Below, in pieces: positions 6,567-29,421 of a stretch of DNA of 52,845 nt (the stretch's first letter is position 1; the number at the start of each line of letters is the position of its first letter). The notes beneath the pieces are model-generated. The model was not told the origin of the DNA. It saw only the letters and a list, made by a program, of their open reading frames with translations, and searched no databases. The stretch spans positions 1 through 52,845 of the forward strand of contig JALSTP010000117.1 of NCBI GenBank assembly GCA_026983675.1, written 5' to 3'. Source of the DNA: Sedimenticola sp. GTDB taxonomy: Bacteria; Pseudomonadota; Gammaproteobacteria; Chromatiales; Chromatiaceae. Made by a program: the position numbers and the translations under genes.

Positions 6567-8012
6567 ATGGCACGGAAACGCGCACTCGTCGTCGATGATT
6601 CCAAGACCGCCCGCATGGTGATGGCGCGGCGACTGGAAAAGCAGCAACTGGATGTGGATACGGTGGACTCCGCCGGCGCGGCCATCGATTACCTCTGTGA
6701 CAACATCCCCAATGTGATCTTCATGGATTACCAGATGCCGGGCATGGACGGCTTTCAGGCCCTGAAGGCCATCAAGAGCAATCCGGCAACGGCCACCATT
6801 CCCGTGTTGATGTACACCTCCCAGGAAAACGACGTGCATGTGAGCCAAGCGCGCGCGTTGGGCGCCGTGGGGGTGCTGCCGAAGGCCGCCGAGGCGAAGG
6901 ACCTGGCCGAAATGCTGGAGGAGCTGCATCTGCTGCCCCACCAGGAGCCGCCTGAAATCACCCGGCCCGCACCACAGGAAGAGGCCAACGATCCGGTAGC
7001 CGAAGAATCGGCGACCGGAAGGACGACCACAACCGACTCCGCGGACGAGACGATCCCTGTCTATCCCAACACCATTGGCAAGCTGGAAAACATCGCCCAG
7101 CAGGCGGAGCAGTCGATGAAGGTGGGGCCGGTACTGCGTAAATTGCTGGGCCAGTACCACAAACTGATCCGCCACGACATCGCCCAGCAACATTCCCGGT
7201 TTTCCGGGGCAGTGGAACAGCAGATCGAGGACCTGCACCGGTCGATCGAAAAGGTGGCGGAACAGATCACGCAGCGGCGCTCTGGATGGAGCCGCTGGAA
7301 GTGGCCGCTGGGTCTCGCCCTGCTCCTGATTCCCATGCTGATGCTCTACCGGCAGACGAATGAGATCGGGCACCAGAGACGCGCCATCGACCGCAAGATC
7401 TCCCGCATCGAGGCCCGGCTGGACCGCATGGCCGCCACCAATGCCGGCAGCCGGATCAGCGACCGCCCGGTACTGCCCGTCGGCAGCACTGAAAACGGCT
7501 CGGTAAACGCCTCCACCCTCGACACCCAGGCGGCACTCGATGCCCTCCAGTGGGCGGTGAACCGTGACAACCGGTTTCCGTATGGCGAGCAGGCCTTCAG
7601 CGAGCCGCGCATCCCCTGGTTGAACGGTCTGCTGTCGCGCCTGGCCAACATGCACTTTACCGGCACCGTACGGCTCGTCTCCCATCTCGGTCGTTTCTGC
7701 CTGCGGGAAGGGCAAAACGGCCTCTTGCTGGCGCCGGACGACATGCCGGCGAAAGAGTGCCACTTCCGCCCCTTGAGCGAACAAGAGGCAGTGACGGAAG
7801 GGGCCTTTCAGAGCATCGGTTTCAGCAACTACCTTGCCACCGCCCCGGCCCTGGCGAACGGCAGGATCAAGGTGGAGATCGCTTCTGCGGGACGATCCGA
7901 ACCCCTCGCCCCCTACCCCGATCCCTCCGCAGTAGACACTGCCGGCGAATGGAACCGCATCGCCGCCCGCAACCAGCGGATCGAGGTCGAGATCATTCCC
8001 CGCCGGCAATAG
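6567..8012 (+). CDS. Response regulator receiver protein with a membrane anchor and an OmpA-like C-terminal domain
   Basis: A 481-residue protein of unusual architecture. Residues 1-120 are a REC domain: VVDDS near the N-terminus, the phospho-acceptor aspartate in VIFMDYQMPGMDG (around residue 54) and the conserved MYTS and LPKA segments. A proline/acid/threonine-rich linker and a helical stretch (about 175-235) follow, then one hydrophobic helix (WPLGLALLLIPMLMLY, about 246-261). The remaining 220 residues would be periplasmic. They end with WNRIAARNQRIEVEIIPR, reminiscent of the end of OmpA/MotB peptidoglycan-binding domains, although the usual TD and NxxLSxxRA motifs are not evident. No DNA-binding or enzymatic output is visible. 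Its 3' end overlaps the convergent HAD gene by 20 bases. Confidence 0.8.
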   Translation: MARKRALVVDDSKTARMVMARRLEKQQLDVDTVDSAGAAIDYLCDNIPNVIFMDYQMPGMDGFQALKAIKSNPATATIPVLMYTSQENDVHVSQARALGAVGVLPKAAEAKDLAEMLEELHLLPHQEPPEITRPAPQEEANDPVAEESATGRTTTTDSADETIPVYPNTIGKLENIAQQAEQSMKVGPVLRKLLGQYHKLIRHDIAQQHSRFSGAVEQQIEDLHRSIEKVAEQITQRRSGWSRWKWPLGLALLLIPMLMLYRQTNEIGHQRRAIDRKISRIEARLDRMAATNAGSRISDRPVLPVGSTENGSVNASTLDTQAALDALQWAVNRDNRFPYGEQAFSEPRIPWLNGLLSRLANMHFTGTVRLVSHLGRFCLREGQNGLLLAPDDMPAKECHFRPLSEQEAVTEGAFQSIGFSNYLATAPALANGRIKVEIASAGRSEPLAPYPDPSAVDTAGEWNRIAARNQRIEVEIIPRRQ

Positions 8013-8679
8013 CCGAAGGCGGCATCACCTGACGAAAGTTGCCAATGGCCTCAAACCGCCCCCCCTCCCGTTGCGGCCCGCGGCTGTCGGGCCTGCGTAT
8101 TGCCAGCAGCCAGCGAATACCGTAATCCTCGGCAGACCGCAGCACCGCCACGCTGTCGTCCACGAACAGGGTACGGCGGGAATCGAACGGAAAAACCCCT
8201 TGCAGCGCCTCCCAGAAGCGCGGATCCTCCTTGGGTAACCCCAGATCGTGGGCACAGACCACCTGGTCGAAATATCCGGCCAGACGGGTGCGTTCCATCT
8301 TCAACCGCAGCGCCTTCTGGTGGGCATTGGTCACCAGCGCCAGGCGCTTCCCGTGGCGGCGCACTGCCTGCAGAAATTCGACCACATGGGGGTGGACGGC
8401 GATAAGATGCTCCACCTCCTGTTTCAGCAGCGCAATGTCCAGTCCCAACTCGCGGCTCCAGTGGTCGAGACAGTACCACTCCAGGGTCCCCTCCTTGTCC
8501 CGATAACGCGACAACAGTTCGCGCCTCGCCGCCGCCAGTGGGATGTCATGCGCCTCCGCATAGCGCCGCGGTACATGTTCGAGCCAAAAATGATTGTCGA
8601 AATGGAGGTCCAGCAGGGTACCGTCCATATCCAGCAGCACCGTGTCGACCGACTGCCAGTCGATTTCAGGTTTATCCAT
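7993..8679 (-). CDS. yrfG: GMP/IMP nucleotidase YrfG-like HAD phosphatase
   Basis: A 228-residue haloacid dehalogenase-type phosphatase. Motif I is DMDGTLLD (nucleophile and acid aspartates), motif II is LVTNAH, the lysine is in GLPKEDPRFW and motif IV is FVDDSVAVL. Length and the sequence DNHFWLEHVPRRYAE match the YrfG group, which dephosphorylates purine nucleotides in E. coli. A longer frame to 8844 is open, but the ATG at 8679 has GAGG upstream and starts at the family N-terminus. It diverges from nudE across 76 bases, matching the yrfG/nudE neighbourhood of E. coli. The 3' end overlaps the convergent regulator gene. Confidence 0.9.
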   Translation of the reverse strand: MDKPEIDWQSVDTVLLDMDGTLLDLHFDNHFWLEHVPRRYAEAHDIPLAAARRELLSRYRDKEGTLEWYCLDHWSRELGLDIALLKQEVEHLIAVHPHVVEFLQAVRRHGKRLALVTNAHQKALRLKMERTRLAGYFDQVVCAHDLGLPKEDPRFWEALQGVFPFDSRRTLFVDDSVAVLRSAEDYGIRWLLAIRRPDSRGPQREGGRFEAIGNFRQVMPPSAIAGGE

Positions 8680-8755
8680 GGAGCCTCGGCGGAATTCCGG
8701 GAGTAAAGCTGATAGAGTATACCCCATCGTCGACCAGCCTATCGCCTTGGATCCC

Positions 8756-9319
8756 ATGCCGGAAAAGCCACGCATCCTGAGCAGCAAGATCGTCGCCCAG
8801 ACCCGCATATTTCGCATCGAACAGATGGACCTGGCCTTCGCCAATGGGGAACAGCGCTGCTATGAGCGGCTCAAAGGGGGACCTCGGGGATCGGTGTTAA
8901 TCGTCCCCATGCTGGACGACGACACGGTGCTGCTGATCCGGGAATACGCGGCGGGCTGCGACCGCTACGAACTGGGTCTGCCGAAGGGCCTCATCGAGGA
9001 GGGGGAAGACCCGTTGCAGGCAGCCAACCGGGAGATCATGGAGGAGGTGGGCTACGGCGCCCGTGATCTGCGCGAGCTTCGCACCATGACCATCGCACCC
9101 GGTTACGTGCAACACCATACCCACATCGTACTGGCCCGGGATCTCTACCCTCACCGGGAACCAGGCGACGAACCCGAACCCATCGAGGTCGTCCCGTGGC
9201 GGCTCTCGCGGCTCAAGGAACTCCTGGGTCAGGCCGATCTAACCGAGGCCCGCTCGATCGCTGCCCTTTTCCTGACCCGGGAAACCCTGAACGACAGGAA
9301 AACAATATCCGAAACCTGA
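8756..9319 (+). CDS. nudE: ADP compounds hydrolase NudE (Nudix)
   Basis: A 187-residue Nudix hydrolase; E. coli NudE (186 residues) cleaves ADP-ribose, NADH and Ap3A to limit nucleotide by-products. The Nudix box is complete (GLIEEGEDPLQAANREIMEE, followed by VGYG), preceded by YELGLPKG. The opening KPRILSSKIVAQTRIFRIEQMDLAF is typical of NudE. An upstream frame extends to 8594 but lies over the divergent yrfG coding start, so the ATG at 8756 is preferred. cysQ begins 48 bases downstream on the same strand; both enzymes remove adenosine nucleotide by-products, so co-transcription makes sense. Confidence 0.93.
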   Translation: MPEKPRILSSKIVAQTRIFRIEQMDLAFANGEQRCYERLKGGPRGSVLIVPMLDDDTVLLIREYAAGCDRYELGLPKGLIEEGEDPLQAANREIMEEVGYGARDLRELRTMTIAPGYVQHHTHIVLARDLYPHREPGDEPEPIEVVPWRLSRLKELLGQADLTEARSIAALFLTRETLNDRKTISET

Positions 9320-23045: not shown

Positions 23046-23681
23046 TCATTCCGAAGTTCCGTGAGAATGGGCATGGGGGGGTGGCAGCGGCTTTCCCTCC
23101 AGGACCGCCCTCGCCGCCGCCAGGGGATCCGTTTCACTGGTGGCCACCACCTGCACCCCCCGGGACGCCATTCGCTGAACGAAGCCCGCCCCGCAGCTTG
23201 CGGTGATTATTAACCCGGCAACACTATATATCGCATTCAGGGCTTCAGGCAGGCGCCGGAACAAGGCGCAGTGCGCAGGCAAGGGTCGTTCCCTTGCCAA
23301 GCACTGGAACGCGGGTCCGGTGCCTGCCTGAAGCCCCTAACCCTATGATATTCAAAGACAGGCCGCGGCGTGCCGGCCCGCAGACTGCGTTGTCCCATCT
23401 TGCTGTAGGATGGCTACAGCGGCGATGGGCCGCCTTGCTGCGAACCGGCACGCCACGGCTGAATACGATATATAGTGTTGCCGGGTTAATAGCACATCGA
23501 CGGTATCGAGGGGATGTTCCACACCGTGAAAATTGTGCATGGCCATCGCCTTGGGGAGGTCCAGTCTGTCCGCCTCCCTGAGGTCAGCGGCCGTCTCCCC
23601 CTCGTAGATAAGAAAACGGCGGGTCTTGCCGGCGTGACCGGTCACGGTGCGGAAATTCTGGCTGCATATGGCAATCTTCAT
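23046..23681 (-). pseudogene. NifX/NifB-like iron-molybdenum cofactor-binding domain protein, interrupted by a TA-element
   Basis: The first 64 codons (MKIAICSQNFRTVTGHAGKT...HPLDTVDVL) and the last 53 (ITASCGAGFVQRMASRGVQVVAT...HSHGTSE) are the two halves of a dinitrogenase iron-molybdenum cofactor biosynthesis (NifB/NifX C-terminal-like) protein. Between them lies a 280-bp element at 23210-23489 flanked by TA. Deleting the element and one TA restores a continuous 117-residue frame with DVLITASCG across the junction. As it stands, translation would run 45 codons into the element and stop at 23352, losing the ITxxCGxG segment and the C-terminal histidine tail. Both halves are otherwise intact, so the disruption looks recent. 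Confidence 0.92.
23210..23489 (-). mobile_element. TA-inserting miniature element, copy 2 (280 bp, intact)
   Basis: The best-preserved long copy. Ends read TTAACCCGGCAACACTATAT and ATATAGTGTTGCCGGGTTAA, inverted repeats of about 31 bp, flanked on both sides by TA (23208-23209 and 23490-23491), consistent with target duplication. It is the reverse complement of copy 1 over its whole length. It carries no transposase and no plausible gene. It interrupts the NifX/NifB-like gene. Confidence 0.95.
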
Positions 23682-24332: not shown

Positions 24333-25133
24333 TCACCGCTCGAGGAGGAGCACCCGGTTGTTCAGCGCCTGCAGTGGCCGGCTGTTGTTCCCCATGAGGG
24401 CATGCAACTCCTGGATGTAGACGCGCGGCACGTCCACTGGATTCATCAGCACCAGCCAGCGGACCCCCTCTGAACAAGGGGGAATGGGCAGCGAACCCTC
24501 ATAACTGAGATAGTCTCTGCGCAGAGGCAACAGAAAAGTGGCGTTTATCCCCATCTCGCGGTTGTAGTAGTGTTCGCCCTGGCCGGAGGGCAGTCGCTCA
24601 AGGAGACGGAACAACACATTGTTGTTGCGCCGGCCGCCCCGGACGAAGACGGCCACGATGGCCACATTTCCCGCACGGTCCTCATGCACGAGATGGATCT
24701 CCATATCCTGCCGCTCGCCATACAGCGTATGCTCGCTGGGCGTATGGAAATGAAACTGCTTCAGGTCATAGCGATGGGAGCCGAACAGGATGTAGCTGCC
24801 CGGTTCATAGTCGACCTCCACCGTATTCCCCGTATTGACCATCGACACACGATTGGCGCGATAATGAAATGACAATGGGGGCATGCGTACCGGCAGGGGG
24901 TTGCGGATATCCACCGGCGACTGCGCCTTTCCGCGTGAACACTGACGGAATGCGGCATTCAGTTCCCCCCAGTGCGCGGGACCCTTCTCGCCCTGATAAC
25001 CCCACTCCGCCGCCGGTTCACCCGCCGAGGACAGAAAGTCCCCCCAGCCACCGACCGCATACGACGCCCAGGGGGCGCTGGCGCCACAACCCACCGCCGC
25101 CGCCATCAACCACGCTCGCACATGTGTTCTCAT
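24333..25133 (-). CDS. Alpha-type carbonic anhydrase, exported
   Basis: A 266-residue alpha carbonic anhydrase with a signal peptide (MRTHVRAWLMAAAVGCGASAPWASYA). Zinc ligands His128, His130 and His147 are visible in QFHFHTPSEH and EIHLVHE; QSPVDI and WGYQGEKGPAHWGEL are further family hallmarks. It interconverts CO2 and bicarbonate, here in the periplasm, where it could supply bicarbonate for transport or buffer pH. The frame is open to 25229, but the ATG at 25133 is at the start of the signal peptide. Downstream of it on the minus strand comes the 3' end of the convergent rhodanese gene, 20 bases away. Confidence 0.95.
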   Translation of the reverse strand: MRTHVRAWLMAAAVGCGASAPWASYAVGGWGDFLSSAGEPAAEWGYQGEKGPAHWGELNAAFRQCSRGKAQSPVDIRNPLPVRMPPLSFHYRANRVSMVNTGNTVEVDYEPGSYILFGSHRYDLKQFHFHTPSEHTLYGERQDMEIHLVHEDRAGNVAIVAVFVRGGRRNNNVLFRLLERLPSGQGEHYYNREMGINATFLLPLRRDYLSYEGSLPIPPCSEGVRWLVLMNPVDVPRVYIQELHALMGNNSRPLQALNNRVLLLER

Positions 25134-25225
25134 ACCTTCTCTTCCGTGCACCCATCCGGGACTCTTCAAGTATAGGCGACCCGCGGTCGCGGGATGATGG
25201 CTCACCCCGATCCTCTTTCCCAACC

Positions 25226-25275
25226 TCAAAAAAAAGCCCCCTGCCCTTAACCAAGGCAGGGGGCTCCCCTTTTTT
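25226..25275 (-). terminator. Bidirectional-looking Rho-independent terminator
   Basis: AGCCCCCTGCC (25235-25245) and GGCAGGGGGCT (25255-25265) form an 11-bp stem with a nine-base loop, followed by a T run on both strands (TTTTTTTGAGG on minus, CCCCTTTTTT on plus). It lies downstream of the dihaem cytochrome gene, but an 81-bp TA-element now separates them. Confidence 0.88.
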
Positions 25276-25276
25276 A

Positions 25277-25357
25277 TTAACCCGGCAACAATATATATCG
25301 TATTCAGCCGTGGCCTGCCTGAAGTCCTGAATGCGATATATATTGTTGCCGGGTTAA
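25277..25357 (+). mobile_element. TA-inserting miniature element, copy 3 (81 bp, internally deleted)
   Basis: Almost nothing but the two 31-bp inverted repeats, which match each other with a single mismatch, joined by about 19 bases. It starts TTAACCCGGCAACAATATAT and ends with the reverse complement, flanked by TA at 25275-25276 and 25358-25359. In RNA it would form one long hairpin. It lies between the stop of the dihaem cytochrome gene (25391) and the terminator at 25226-25275, so it is probably transcribed. Confidence 0.95.
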
Positions 25358-25390
25358 TAAAGTCGAGTTTGAACCGTGATCAGTGGCCCG

Positions 25391-25999
25391 TCACTGTTGG
25401 CTGATATAGAACTCGATCAGCTTCTCCACATCACCATCCTTCAGCTTCTTGAATTTCTTCCTCATCTTCTTCGGCACATCGCGTTCACCGGAAGCAATGA
25501 GTTCAAACTGATGTGTCAGATAACCCCGCCACTGACCGGCGAGAATTGCCGCATCGTCGTCGGCATTGGATCCCCCATCGGAGTGGCACTTTTCGCACCG
25601 CTTCTTGTGCACCTTGGCGCCTTTCTTCGCCAGCTTGGCATCGAACTTCTGTTTGTGCGGTGTAAACGTCTGTTTGGCGTAATAGGCTGCAACGGCCTTG
25701 ATGTCGTCTTCCGACAGATCCTTCGAAATGGCCTGCATGTCGGTCTCGTCACCGTCCTTGGGCTTGTATTTCTCCGCCGGGCGGTCGCCTGCCTTGTACT
25801 GATTCAGGATGTCTTCCAGCGCGGCCGCCGAGAAACCGGCGATCGTCGGCACCTTGGTGTCTTCACTGTTGCCGTTCTTGCCGTGGCACTTGTCGCACTT
25901 GTCGGTGAGTTCCGACGACTGGGCCACCAGCGGCGCGAGTGTCAACAAGGCCGCGGCGCTGGCCACGGCGATTACTCTCTTCATGGATGTTGCTTTCAT
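25391..25999 (-). CDS. Dihaem cytochrome c (c4 type)
   Basis: A 202-residue periplasmic cytochrome with two haem-binding motifs, CDKCH (35-39) and CEKCH (135-139), and a signal peptide (KRVIAVASAAALLTLAPLVAQS). Two similar halves, each with a possible distal methionine ligand (TDMQAISKDLSEDDIKAVAAYY in the first), fit cytochrome c4, which carries electrons from the bc1 complex to terminal oxidases. The protein is unusually rich in lysine. GGAGG precedes the ATG at 25999; the ATG at 25984 would still give an acceptable signal sequence. Its probable terminator lies beyond an inserted TA-element. Confidence 0.92.
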   Translation of the reverse strand: MKATSMKRVIAVASAAALLTLAPLVAQSSELTDKCDKCHGKNGNSEDTKVPTIAGFSAAALEDILNQYKAGDRPAEKYKPKDGDETDMQAISKDLSEDDIKAVAAYYAKQTFTPHKQKFDAKLAKKGAKVHKKRCEKCHSDGGSNADDDAAILAGQWRGYLTHQFELIASGERDVPKKMRKKFKKLKDGDVEKLIEFYISQQ

Positions 26000-26221
26000 C
26001 ACTCCTCCTGCATTGTTTGCATTCTTGGACTTTGGGACCGGTTACCGCCTCAACGCGGCGTCTCCCCCACTCAGACTGCGAGAATCATTCCCGGTTCAAG
26101 GAACACCTTACGAAAAACCGGTCCGATTTTCAAAATCCGGGCCTTTTTGACAAAAAATTTCAAATTGCGCCATCATTAGGAATTTCGATCCGCCCAAAGG
26201 CGACTCCATGCCCCCGACACA

Positions 26222-28462
26222 TCAGATCAGCTCGGAATCGGTCGCCACCTCGATCAGCACAGGCCCTTTCGCCTCCAACGCCGATGCCAGCGCCGCCTCC
26301 AGCGCATCCGGCCGCTCGACCCGTAGCCCCGTGCCGCCACTGCTCTCGGCAAAGGCGGCGAAATCGGGGTTCTGCAAAGCGGTCTGCCACACGCTCCAGT
26401 GGCCCGCCCGTTGTTCCTTGGAGATCTTCCCCAACTCGCCGTTGTTGAGCAGGACATGGATGATATCCATGCCATACTTGACCGCCGTGGTGAACTCGGC
26501 CAGATACTGCCCCAACCCGCCGTCGCCACTGATGGCGATCACCCGCCGGCCATGGTGTGGGCCCTCCACCTGGGTCGCAGCCCAGGCGCCCAGCGCCGCC
26601 GGCAGGGCAAAGCCGATGGAACCCAGATAGCCCGACATCAGCACGGTCTGCCGCTTACACTCGAAATAGCGACCGAAGGAGTAGGTGTTGTTGCCCACGT
26701 CCACCGCGATCACCGCGTCTTCGGGACACCACGCCGAAAGCCGGTCGAACAGCAAGGCGGAGTTGAGCCCCTGCCCCCGGTCGCGCCGTGCTCGCCTCGC
26801 CTTCTCGGCCCGCCACTGCGCCCAGTGCGATGCCAGTTCGGGTGTCCGGTCCTCCCATGGGTCCATGCCCGGCAGACGGTCGCACATCCTCCGCGCGGTG
26901 ACGCCGATCTCACCCCACACCGGCACCTCCACGGGATGGAATTTGCCCAACGCCGCCGGATCGAAGTCCACCTGCACGATCGGCTTCTTGGCGCTGATGC
27001 CGGTATGATTGGAAAAGGAGGCGCCGAACACCAGCAACAGATCCGCTTGGTTCATACAACCACTGGCCACCGGCGTACCACTGCGCCCCAACACACCCGC
27101 CGCGAGGGGATGATCGTCGGCGATCTGGCCCTTGGCCTTGAAGGTGGTGAGCACCGGGGCATGCAACCGCTCGGCCAGGATGATCACCGCGTCCATGGCG
27201 TCGCGCGCACCATAACCCACGATCACCACCGGCCGTTTTGCCCGGATCAGGCGTTCAAGCGCCGCCTCCAGCGCCTTCTCCGGCGGGGCGATGGCCGTGG
27301 TCTCCGCCAGACGCCCGCGCGGGCCGGAGGGGGCATCGCCCTCCCCCGCGGGGATTACCTGCACCTCGTCGGGAAAGATGAGGTGGGCCACGTCGCGCTG
27401 CACCACCGCGTGCTTCAACGCCAGCGTCATCAACTCGGGGTGGCGGCTCCCCGGCAGCACTGTCTGGCTGAAGCCGGCGACCGCCTCGAAGGCGGCGGCG
27501 AGATCGATCTCCTGAAACGCCCCCGGGCCAAACACCTGGGTGTTGACCTGGCCCGTGAGCGCCAGCACCGGCGCCCGGTCCACCTTGGCGTCCCACAGCC
27601 CGGTGAGCAGGTTAGTGGCGCCGGGTCCGGCAATGGAGAGGCAGGCCGCCGGCCGCCCGGTGAGCTTGGCATAGCCGGCACAGGCGAAGGCCGCCGCGCC
27701 CTCGTGGCGGATGCCGATGTAGGTGAGACCACCCGCCGCCTCCTGCTCGCGCATGGCGTCCGCCAGCCCCAGGTTGGAGTGACCCACCATGCCGAAGACA
27801 TGGGTCACCCCCCAGTTGACCATCGTCTCCACCATCAGGTCGCTGACAGTGCGGGTACGCTCCAGCCGCTCCACCACCTGCACGTAGACACCATCGTCCC
27901 GCACCTCCAATGGAAACACAGGCACGCCGTCATCGAATCCGCCAGGGGATTTTCCGCTGTGTGGATCGAAGTCCCAGCCGTGCCAGGGGCAGCGCAACCA
28001 GCATTCACCCCCACTTGTGCATTCGATGCTGCCCTCTCCCAACGGGCCACCCTGGTGGGGACAACGGTTGTCCAGCGCCCCGTACCGGCCCTTGTGGAAT
28101 GTCAATGCAATCGCCTGACGGCCCGCCTGTACCGCACGCACCTCCCCCGCCTGCATGTCGCCGGGTTCCGCCACCTTGTACCAGACCCGACGCAGCCCCT
28201 CCGAGGCGTCGAAGTCCTCCTGGGTGAGTCGCTTGTGGCTGCCGTCGCACAGCGGCGGGGTCTTGGTATGCTTGCACTGGCAGAAGAAGTACCTGTCGGC
28301 CTTCTCCGCGGTGAAGGCCACCGGCTCGAATACGGTACCCTTGTGGGAACCGTCACAGAAAGGCTGGCGCTTCGAACGGCCGCAACTGCACCAGTAGACC
28401 GTCTCGCCGGCCTTGAGGTCCACCGGTTTGGGCCGGGTATCCGCGATTCTGGGCGTGCTCAT
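26222..28462 (-). CDS. Fusion of two CDGSH domains, a Rieske domain and a thiamine-diphosphate enzyme
   Basis: A 746-residue multi-domain protein. CDGSH-1: CSCGRSKRQPFCDGSH with Cys25, Cys27, Cys36, His40. CDGSH-2: CQCKHTKTPPLCDGSH with Cys61, Cys63, Cys72, His76. Rieske: CPHQGG and CPWHGWDF with Cys134, His136, Cys158, His161. Each should hold a [2Fe-2S] cluster. From about 203 onward lies a whole acetolactate synthase/pyruvate oxidase-type enzyme: the PYR domain with catalytic Glu254 in GIRHEGAAAFACAGYAKLTG, a central domain (RPVVIVGYGARDAM), and the PP domain with the thiamine motif GDGG (from 646) to NN (673-674). No signal peptide is seen, so it is cytoplasmic. The substrate is unknown; pyruvate or another 2-oxo acid is inferred. 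Electrons from decarboxylation could pass to the clusters. Confidence 0.93.
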   Translation of the reverse strand: MSTPRIADTRPKPVDLKAGETVYWCSCGRSKRQPFCDGSHKGTVFEPVAFTAEKADRYFFCQCKHTKTPPLCDGSHKRLTQEDFDASEGLRRVWYKVAEPGDMQAGEVRAVQAGRQAIALTFHKGRYGALDNRCPHQGGPLGEGSIECTSGGECWLRCPWHGWDFDPHSGKSPGGFDDGVPVFPLEVRDDGVYVQVVERLERTRTVSDLMVETMVNWGVTHVFGMVGHSNLGLADAMREQEAAGGLTYIGIRHEGAAAFACAGYAKLTGRPAACLSIAGPGATNLLTGLWDAKVDRAPVLALTGQVNTQVFGPGAFQEIDLAAAFEAVAGFSQTVLPGSRHPELMTLALKHAVVQRDVAHLIFPDEVQVIPAGEGDAPSGPRGRLAETTAIAPPEKALEAALERLIRAKRPVVIVGYGARDAMDAVIILAERLHAPVLTTFKAKGQIADDHPLAAGVLGRSGTPVASGCMNQADLLLVFGASFSNHTGISAKKPIVQVDFDPAALGKFHPVEVPVWGEIGVTARRMCDRLPGMDPWEDRTPELASHWAQWRAEKARRARRDRGQGLNSALLFDRLSAWCPEDAVIAVDVGNNTYSFGRYFECKRQTVLMSGYLGSIGFALPAALGAWAATQVEGPHHGRRVIAISGDGGLGQYLAEFTTAVKYGMDIIHVLLNNGELGKISKEQRAGHWSVWQTALQNPDFAAFAESSGGTGLRVERPDALEAALASALEAKGPVLIEVATDSELI

Positions 28463-28554
28463 GGTATGCTTTTCCCCGGATTGTCTGCCGTGCCCGCCAC
28501 GATACTGGAGACACGGTGGGAAAGGAACCTTTGCGCCATCTGGGGGCTGAACAC

Positions 28555-29421
28555 ATGGAAGAACACCATCGCCGCCGGTTGTGGCTCGCCCCGCTTCTCA
28601 TCGCGCTGCTTTTCCATAGCGGCACAAGGCCGTGGGCAGACGCTGACAACCCACCCGCGCTGATCCTGGCGCAGGTCTATCACCGTGGCATCGACCTCCG
28701 CCGTTACTGGGTCAGCGAGAAGCTCGACGGCATCCGCGCCTACTGGAACGGAAAACGTCTCATCTCGCGCGGCGGACACGCCTTTTCGGCGCCCGACGGC
28801 TTCACCCGGGGCTTTCCCCCCACTCCCCTGGACGGGGAACTCTGGTGCGGCCGCGGCGGCTTCGAGCGCCTGAGCAGCATCGTACGCGACGGCTCGCCCA
28901 ACCCTGCCGCCTGGTCCGATGTCACCTACATGGTGTTCGACCTGCCCGCCTCCCCCGCCCGCTTCACCGCCCGGCTCGCCACCCTGCGCCGGATGTTCCG
29001 GACACTCGACGCCCCTCACATCGAACTCATCCCCCAGCGCCGGATCACGCGCCATGAGGATCTCATGCAACGGCTCGCGGAGGTCACCGCCGCGGGCGGA
29101 GAGGGGCTGATGCTACACCGTGGCGACAGCCTGTATCGCCCCGGCCGCAGCCGCGATCTGCTCAAGGTCAAGACCTACGAGGACGCCGAGGCGCGTGTCA
29201 TCGGCCATCTCCCGGGCAAAGGGAAGTACCGGGGCATGCTGGGCGCGCTGTGGGTGGAGACGCCGGAAGGGCTCCGCTTCCGCATCGGCAGCGGATTCAC
29301 CGATGCGGAACGCCGCTCGCCGCCGGTCATCGGCAGCATCATCACCTATCGCTTCAATGGCCGGACCCGCAACGGCATTCCCCGCTTCGCCCGCTTTCTG
29401 CGCGTCCGCCACACATTCTGA
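28555..29421 (+). CDS. Exported ATP-dependent DNA ligase (Lig E type)
   Basis: A 288-residue minimal ATP-dependent DNA ligase. The nucleotidyl lysine is Lys57 in EKLDGIRAYWNG; RGG, DGELW, EGLMLH and LLKVKTYEDAEARVIG are the further motifs, and the C-terminal OB domain ends with FNGRTRNGIPRFARFLRVR. It has no zinc finger or BRCT and matches the Lig E group, which is exported and implicated in DNA uptake or biofilm DNA. A signal peptide is visible (RRRLWLAPLLIALLFHSGTRPWADA). A GTG at 28516 with GGAG five bases upstream is a rival start, adding 13 residues. It diverges from the CDGSH-Rieske-thiamine fusion gene, 92 bases away. Confidence 0.9.
   Translation: MEEHHRRRLWLAPLLIALLFHSGTRPWADADNPPALILAQVYHRGIDLRRYWVSEKLDGIRAYWNGKRLISRGGHAFSAPDGFTRGFPPTPLDGELWCGRGGFERLSSIVRDGSPNPAAWSDVTYMVFDLPASPARFTARLATLRRMFRTLDAPHIELIPQRRITRHEDLMQRLAEVTAAGGEGLMLHRGDSLYRPGRSRDLLKVKTYEDAEARVIGHLPGKGKYRGMLGALWVETPEGLRFRIGSGFTDAERRSPPVIGSIITYRFNGRTRNGIPRFARFLRVRHTF

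Follow-up and report, generated by a model that had tools for sequence, protein, structure and literature searches.

To our knowledge, thiamine diphosphate (ThDP)-dependent enzymes of the pyruvate oxidase (POX) fold either pass electrons to FAD, with a quinone or oxygen, or carry out no net redox reaction. A gene in Sedimenticola sp. raises the question of whether such an enzyme could release its electrons through iron-sulfur clusters on its own polypeptide. We analyzed this gene within a 52,845-nucleotide stretch of contig JALSTP010000117.1 (the window). A first-pass annotation had described two CDGSH motifs, a Rieske motif and a complete ThDP enzyme fused in one chain, with cluster ligands and catalytic residues intact; the open reading frame, the Pfam domains and an alignment of 97 distinct sequences bear this out.

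Domain architecture of the Sedimenticola protein

The gene is a single uninterrupted open reading frame, running from ATG to stop with zero internal stops. A Pfam scan of its 746-residue product found two zf-CDGSH domains (2.5e-17), a Rieske domain and the three domains of a ThDP enzyme, all above the curated cut-offs. The features are as follows.

26222–28462, reverse strand: complete gene, 2xCDGSH-Rieske-ThDP enzyme, 746 aa (open reading frame and Pfam; same architecture in 28 family members)
28199–28462, reverse strand: residues 1–88, tandem CDGSH module (phmmer 3.3e-30 to 3tbn, the closest solved chain)
28343–28390, reverse strand: CDGSH motif 1, CSCGRSKRQPFCDGSH, ligands C25, C27, C36 and H40
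28235–28282, reverse strand: CDGSH motif 2, CQCKHTKTPPLCDGSH, ligands C61, C63, C72 and H76
27863–28186, reverse strand: residues 93–200, Rieske [2Fe-2S] domain of soluble ferredoxin type (Pfam Rieske, residues 94–171, 7.4e-17)
27980–28063, reverse strand: Rieske ligand stretch, C134-x-H136 ... C158-x-x-H161 (all four ligands in 97/97 distinct homologues)
27497–27850, reverse strand: N-terminal (Pyr) domain of the ThDP enzyme, catalytic E254 (TPP_enzyme_N, residues 205–322, 9.7e-34)
26888–27271, reverse strand: central (FAD/nucleotide-type) domain, R460 (TPP_enzyme_M, residues 398–525, 6.7e-34)
26246–26701, reverse strand: C-terminal (PP) domain, GDG...NN motif (TPP_enzyme_C, residues 588–739, 2.5e-35)
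26411–26428, reverse strand: signature K679-I-S-K-E-Q684 (alignment to 1y9d/4fee/2ez4)

Antisense to the entire ThDP gene runs a 754-residue open frame (26399–28663, forward strand), which looks like a GC-rich mirror frame and not a gene; a simple longest-ORF caller would take it in place of the real one.

Tandem CDGSH motifs characterize the type 6 CISD proteins (Lin et al. 2011, PMC3174974). The N-terminal module has this form: a spacing of about 20 residues separates its 3Cys-1His motifs (25–40 and 61–76), and its relatives are of type 6, among them the tandem-CDGSH protein 3tbn. Both ligand sets are identical in 16/16 double-CDGSH sequences that have the N-terminus in the alignment, and the only CDGSH matches in the host genome are the two within this gene. 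The Rieske domain (CPHQGG ... CPWHGW) shares its sequence class with the soluble Rieske-type ferredoxins CarAc, T4moC and BphF, the first two being among its PDB relatives: it has the CxH...CxxH pattern and lacks the disulfide cysteines seen in bc1-type Rieske domains. Those ferredoxins serve an oxygenase, whereas here the domain is fused to a ThDP enzyme, whose own motif residues are E254, G646-D647-G648 and N673/N674.

The Rieske-ThDP core is the conserved unit

A scan of the genome collection confirmed 574 relatives and retained the 80 best; the weaker matches may lie outside the family. These 80 loci are the most similar of the 574 and are related among themselves, and counts over them are not independent; gene calls are simple longest-ORF picks. 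By architecture, the tree rows comprise 66 Rieske-ThDP proteins without CDGSH, 28 2xCDGSH-Rieske-ThDP proteins and four of the form CDGSH-Fer4_19-CDGSH-Rieske-ThDP (L040, L050, L054 and L068). The domain order of the Sedimenticola protein thus recurs in at least 28 family members, which rules out both chance and faulty assembly as the origin of the fusion. That separate genes were merged by faulty assembly or annotation can be struck off with near certainty: standalone small double-CDGSH genes do exist close to some loci (L002, L024), but at least 28 members share the same unbroken frame and the Rieske and ThDP parts are fused in 97/97 distinct sequences.

The spread of architectures identifies the Rieske-ThDP core (~655 aa), not the CDGSH-bearing form, as the conserved unit, and the first-pass annotation overlooked it as such. 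The CDGSH module is, on the same comparison, a lineage-specific add-on, found in one gammaproteobacterial-type clade, with a different CISD arrangement in four more loci. In the unrooted tree the double-CDGSH forms (SH-aLRT 99) adjoin the CDGSH-Fer4_19-CDGSH forms (92). Rooting was intended to time the gain of CDGSH; the outgroup branches were too long for trust and the tree was kept unrooted. Since the two forms are different CISD arrangements, the gain may have involved two fusions, or equally one fusion followed by replacement. The four Fer4_19-containing relatives, such as that at L050 (7452–10085), are longer, with one extra predicted Fe-S cluster per chain.

Hosts include Pseudomonadota, Acidobacteriota, Myxococcota, Gemmatimonadota, Planctomycetota, Nitrospirota and Cyanobacteriota, though many are metagenome-assembled genomes and single placements may therefore be wrong. 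Acanthopleuribacter pedis and Haloferax larsenii are among the cultured hosts. Plasmids of haloarchaea and mycobacteria carry Rieske-ThDP genes too, with the product labelled only "thiamine pyrophosphate-binding protein". The spread is patchy: the core is present in 26 of 194 genomes of the host's taxonomic family and in five of 299 genomes sampled in its phylum. Sequence conservation within the family is strong. Besides the four Rieske ligands, residues H228, E254, F316, Q317, R460, H486, D647, G648, K679, I680, E683 and Q684 are invariant in 97/97 distinct sequences, and a cluster whose ligands are kept so strictly is hard to square with an ornamental one.

The ThDP core resembles pyruvate oxidase but lacks some of its features

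The likeness to pyruvate oxidase noted at first pass is upheld: the solved sequences nearest to the ThDP part are E. coli PoxB (3eya) and L. plantarum POX, at ~26–27% identity. The best NCBIfam matches are likewise pyruvate oxidase models, PRK08611 (387.5 bits against a cut-off of 742) and PRK09124 (305.7 against 792), and scores so far under the cut-offs fit a separate family. An AlphaFold2 model built on 63 homologues (mean pLDDT 91.2, pTM 0.83) has PoxB 3eya as its best PDB match in Foldseek, with a TM-score of 0.91 over the target. Together with Pfam, this predicted model places the Pyr-middle-PP ThDP fold in the protein; acetolactate synthase 6lpi is nearly as close.

Alignment to L. plantarum POX (1y9d, 4fee and 2ez4, the last an F479W variant) allows the active site to be compared, the roles of the POX residues being general knowledge of that enzyme. 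POX residues E59, F121, I480 and E483 have their counterparts in E254, F316, I680 and E683, and R264 in R460, which, with the middle domain, makes up the FAD-related features of the sequence. In POX, Phe479 helps to pass electrons to FAD. The aromatic residue between ThDP and FAD (Phe479/Phe465) is not kept here: its position is taken by K679, a lysine in 97/97 distinct homologues, which counts against a POX-like FAD relay. Taken together, these residues point to chemistry like that of POX, with the contact between ThDP and FAD altered. Of the 572 residues of PoxB, the alignment reaches no further than residue 529, a point three residues short of the end of the 746-residue protein, and the C-terminal membrane-binding segment of PoxB is absent. 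Its absence makes an electron exit other than a quinone, as first proposed for this gene, reasonable.

A glutamate-synthase-domain flavoprotein is a recurrent neighbor

The commonest neighbor of Rieske-ThDP genes encodes a protein with a Glu_synthase domain. Counting only loci with at least 2.5 kb of flank on both sides, such a gene is nearby in 24 of 56 loci (23 of 45 Rieske-only, one of 11 CDGSH-bearing). Genomes hold about two to three matches to this domain, from which we estimate a chance expectation of roughly one locus in 100. Linked pairs are mostly on the same strand, often with gaps under 150 bp or one gene in between. The partner, whose Glu_synthase domain is of the FMN/[3Fe-4S] kind, has similarity to FMN_dh and retains all three cysteines known from the [3Fe-4S] site in glutamate synthase, and it usually carries an N-terminal Rieske domain of its own; Rieske-bearing partners also lie near the ThDP gene in haloarchaea. 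At L043 and L095 the linked protein is a different Glu_synthase-domain protein, without a Rieske or like Fe-S module.

In most cases the Fe-S modules of the two neighbors match, Rieske with Rieske and 2xCDGSH with 2xCDGSH. Matching of CDGSH modules comes from essentially one lineage (L004, L024/G133): in L004 and L024, which are from related lineages, two CDGSH motifs are present in the ThDP enzyme and, in place of Rieske, in its partner, whose layout equals that of a type 5 CISD (2xCDGSH plus glutamate synthase domain, PMC3174974). Across the 194 genomes of the host's family, the partner is present in 15 of 26 that carry the core versus 20 of 168 others (Fisher p = 8e-7, uncorrected for kinship), and all seven Rieske-only cores among them have it.

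The Sedimenticola genome itself (99.8% complete) yielded no ortholog of the linked flavoprotein, the best match having 36% identity, and no DUF5996; the partner thus cannot be obligatory. The initial description of the gene as isolated from pathway partners therefore holds for the host genome but not for the family, in which about half of the well-flanked Rieske-only loci have the recurrent gene.

DUF5996, a protein of unknown function for which we found no paper in the open-access literature, lies beside or between the ThDP and Glu_synthase-domain genes at at least 25 loci, including L058 (760–1623). Na+/H+ antiporters are near at least 16 loci and ECF sigma factors near at least nine; in Halorarius an antiporter adjoins the ThDP gene. 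Five loci (L078, at 7215–9077, and L056, L087, L094 and L098) have a ferric-reductase-like membrane protein fused to Rieske near the ThDP gene; a second recurring neighbor there is an uncharacterized membrane-anchored protein of ~260 aa.

Surroundings of the Sedimenticola gene

A conserved operon around the Sedimenticola copy was considered and rejected. Neighbors were compared over 20 CDGSH-type loci, the Sedimenticola locus itself being unscored, and these show apparent lineage synteny only, such as an AraC/Ada-like gene in ten. The cytochrome c, carbonic anhydrase and DNA ligase genes that flank the Sedimenticola gene do not recur among the 20. The cytochrome c gene (25391–26002, reverse strand; two CxxCH haem motifs) follows the ThDP gene in the same orientation after a gap of 219 bp, and its product could be an electron acceptor. 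Also in the window are a eukaryotic-type (alpha) carbonic anhydrase (24333–25229, reverse strand; Pfam 1.9e-35) and, divergently oriented, a short ATP-dependent DNA ligase (28516–29421, forward strand) whose hydrophobic N-terminus may be a signal peptide. A palindromic repeat consisting of an inverted pair of 35 nt at about 25273–25361 (97%) has copies near 23207–23259 and 23459–23491 (92–97%), within 23207–23491, and resembles a small mobile or REP-like element.

Proposed mechanism and alternatives

We propose, with middling confidence, that the protein, which has the pyruvate oxidase fold, is a soluble enzyme that uses ThDP to oxidize 2-oxo acids, and that its electrons would leave through the covalently attached Rieske cluster and not a quinone. 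Judging from the fold and the conserved residues, a 2-oxo acid would be decarboxylated by ThDP bound at E254 and the GDG...N motif. The enamine would then be oxidized, with FAD of the middle domain as a possible intermediary (R460 is conserved, but the relay phenylalanine of POX is the invariant lysine), and single electrons would pass to the Rieske cluster. In the Sedimenticola lineage they may continue to the two CDGSH clusters as an outlet to a soluble acceptor. The potentials of Rieske ferredoxins are around -0.15 V and those of CDGSH clusters around 0 V, and transfer from enamine to Rieske to CDGSH would accordingly run downhill. In many other genomes the neighboring Glu_synthase FMN/[3Fe-4S] flavoprotein, with its own Rieske or CDGSH module, is the probable acceptor or a co-user of the acceptor.

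An unlikely alternative, though the one that survives best, is that the Fe-S modules are regulatory, with Rieske and CDGSH clusters sensing redox state, oxygen or iron and gating a POX-like or decarboxylase enzyme. Acetohydroxyacid synthases, which retain FAD without redox use, offer a precedent. ECF sigma/anti-sigma pairs and cation:proton antiporters beside some loci lend it a stress-response flavor, and CDGSH clusters are able not only to pass electrons but also to be transferred themselves (PMC5859297). A regulator would, however, be easier to lose or swap than the strict retention of the Rieske ligands indicates, and regulation leaves unexplained why the linked flavoprotein usually has a Rieske or CDGSH module of its own.

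The near equivalence of the acetolactate synthase fold in the structural search raises a second, still less probable reading, a non-redox ThDP lyase or carboligase whose Fe-S domains serve protein docking; K679 could then bind a second anionic group. Acetolactate synthases have a residue other than Glu at the position of POX E483, whereas E683 is Glu in all 97 distinct sequences. NCBIfam and phmmer both place pyruvate oxidases above acetolactate synthases, and docking would not need intact cluster ligands.

Electrons might also flow the other way: the Rieske domain could feed the active site for a reduction or a carboxylation, or an amino or hydroxy acid could be oxidized by the linked flavoprotein, which would then be the donor. 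Rieske ferredoxins are normally donors, and the FMN_dh similarity and Glu_synthase domain of the flavoprotein would suit such a role, but soluble Rieske and CDGSH potentials are too high for reduction of acyl-ThDP and the nearest folds are oxidative or non-redox; we give this little credence.

Relation to described enzymes

The protein can be set beside several known systems. With the pyruvate oxidases and pyruvate:quinone oxidoreductases (PoxB 3eya, C. glutamicum PQO 9ev6, L. plantarum POX 1pow) it has in common the three-domain ThDP fold, the catalytic Glu and GDG...N; it differs in its N-terminal Rieske and CDGSH domains, the invariant Lys for Phe479 and the missing PoxB membrane segment. 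Acetohydroxyacid/acetolactate synthases have the same fold and domain order as the ThDP part, from which they are set apart by its Glu at the E483 position, its Fe-S domains and its separate family by sequence. The 2-oxoacid:ferredoxin oxidoreductases (PFOR/OFOR) are a functional analogy, ThDP enzymes that hand electrons to iron-sulfur clusters. They have another domain set, [4Fe-4S] clusters and CoA dependence (cf. PMC5020499), and Pfam detected no PFOR-type or 4Fe-4S domains in the 746-residue protein.

Surveys of CDGSH proteins list fusions with glutamate synthase, Fer4_19/DUF1271 and Rieske_2 (PMC5859297, PMC3174974), and neither text contains the words thiamine or TPP; the types 5 and 6 CISD are described (PMC3174974) without the fusion to Rieske and a ThDP enzyme that the Sedimenticola gene has. 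No published description of a Rieske- or CDGSH-fused ThDP enzyme was found in the open-access literature, most subscription papers lying outside that search, which agrees with the earlier statement that this is not a described enzyme class. The Rieske-ThDP core is apparently an uncharacterized family of many bacteria and some archaea.

More tentatively, and with rather more doubt than belief, we suggest an undescribed class of ThDP enzymes that oxidize 2-oxo acids, release the electrons by a covalently bound Rieske domain and work as a pair with a glutamate-synthase-like flavoenzyme bearing a Rieske or CDGSH tag. In bacteria and haloarchaea, matched [2Fe-2S] modules would then connect 2-oxo-acid oxidation with a second reaction at a flavin. 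The occurrence of the family with a flavoprotein bearing the same kind of Fe-S module suggests a new way to take electrons from such an enzyme. If true, 2-oxo-acid oxidation would have an additional electron exit, and CDGSH clusters, whose function is largely open, would be found in a rare catalytic context.
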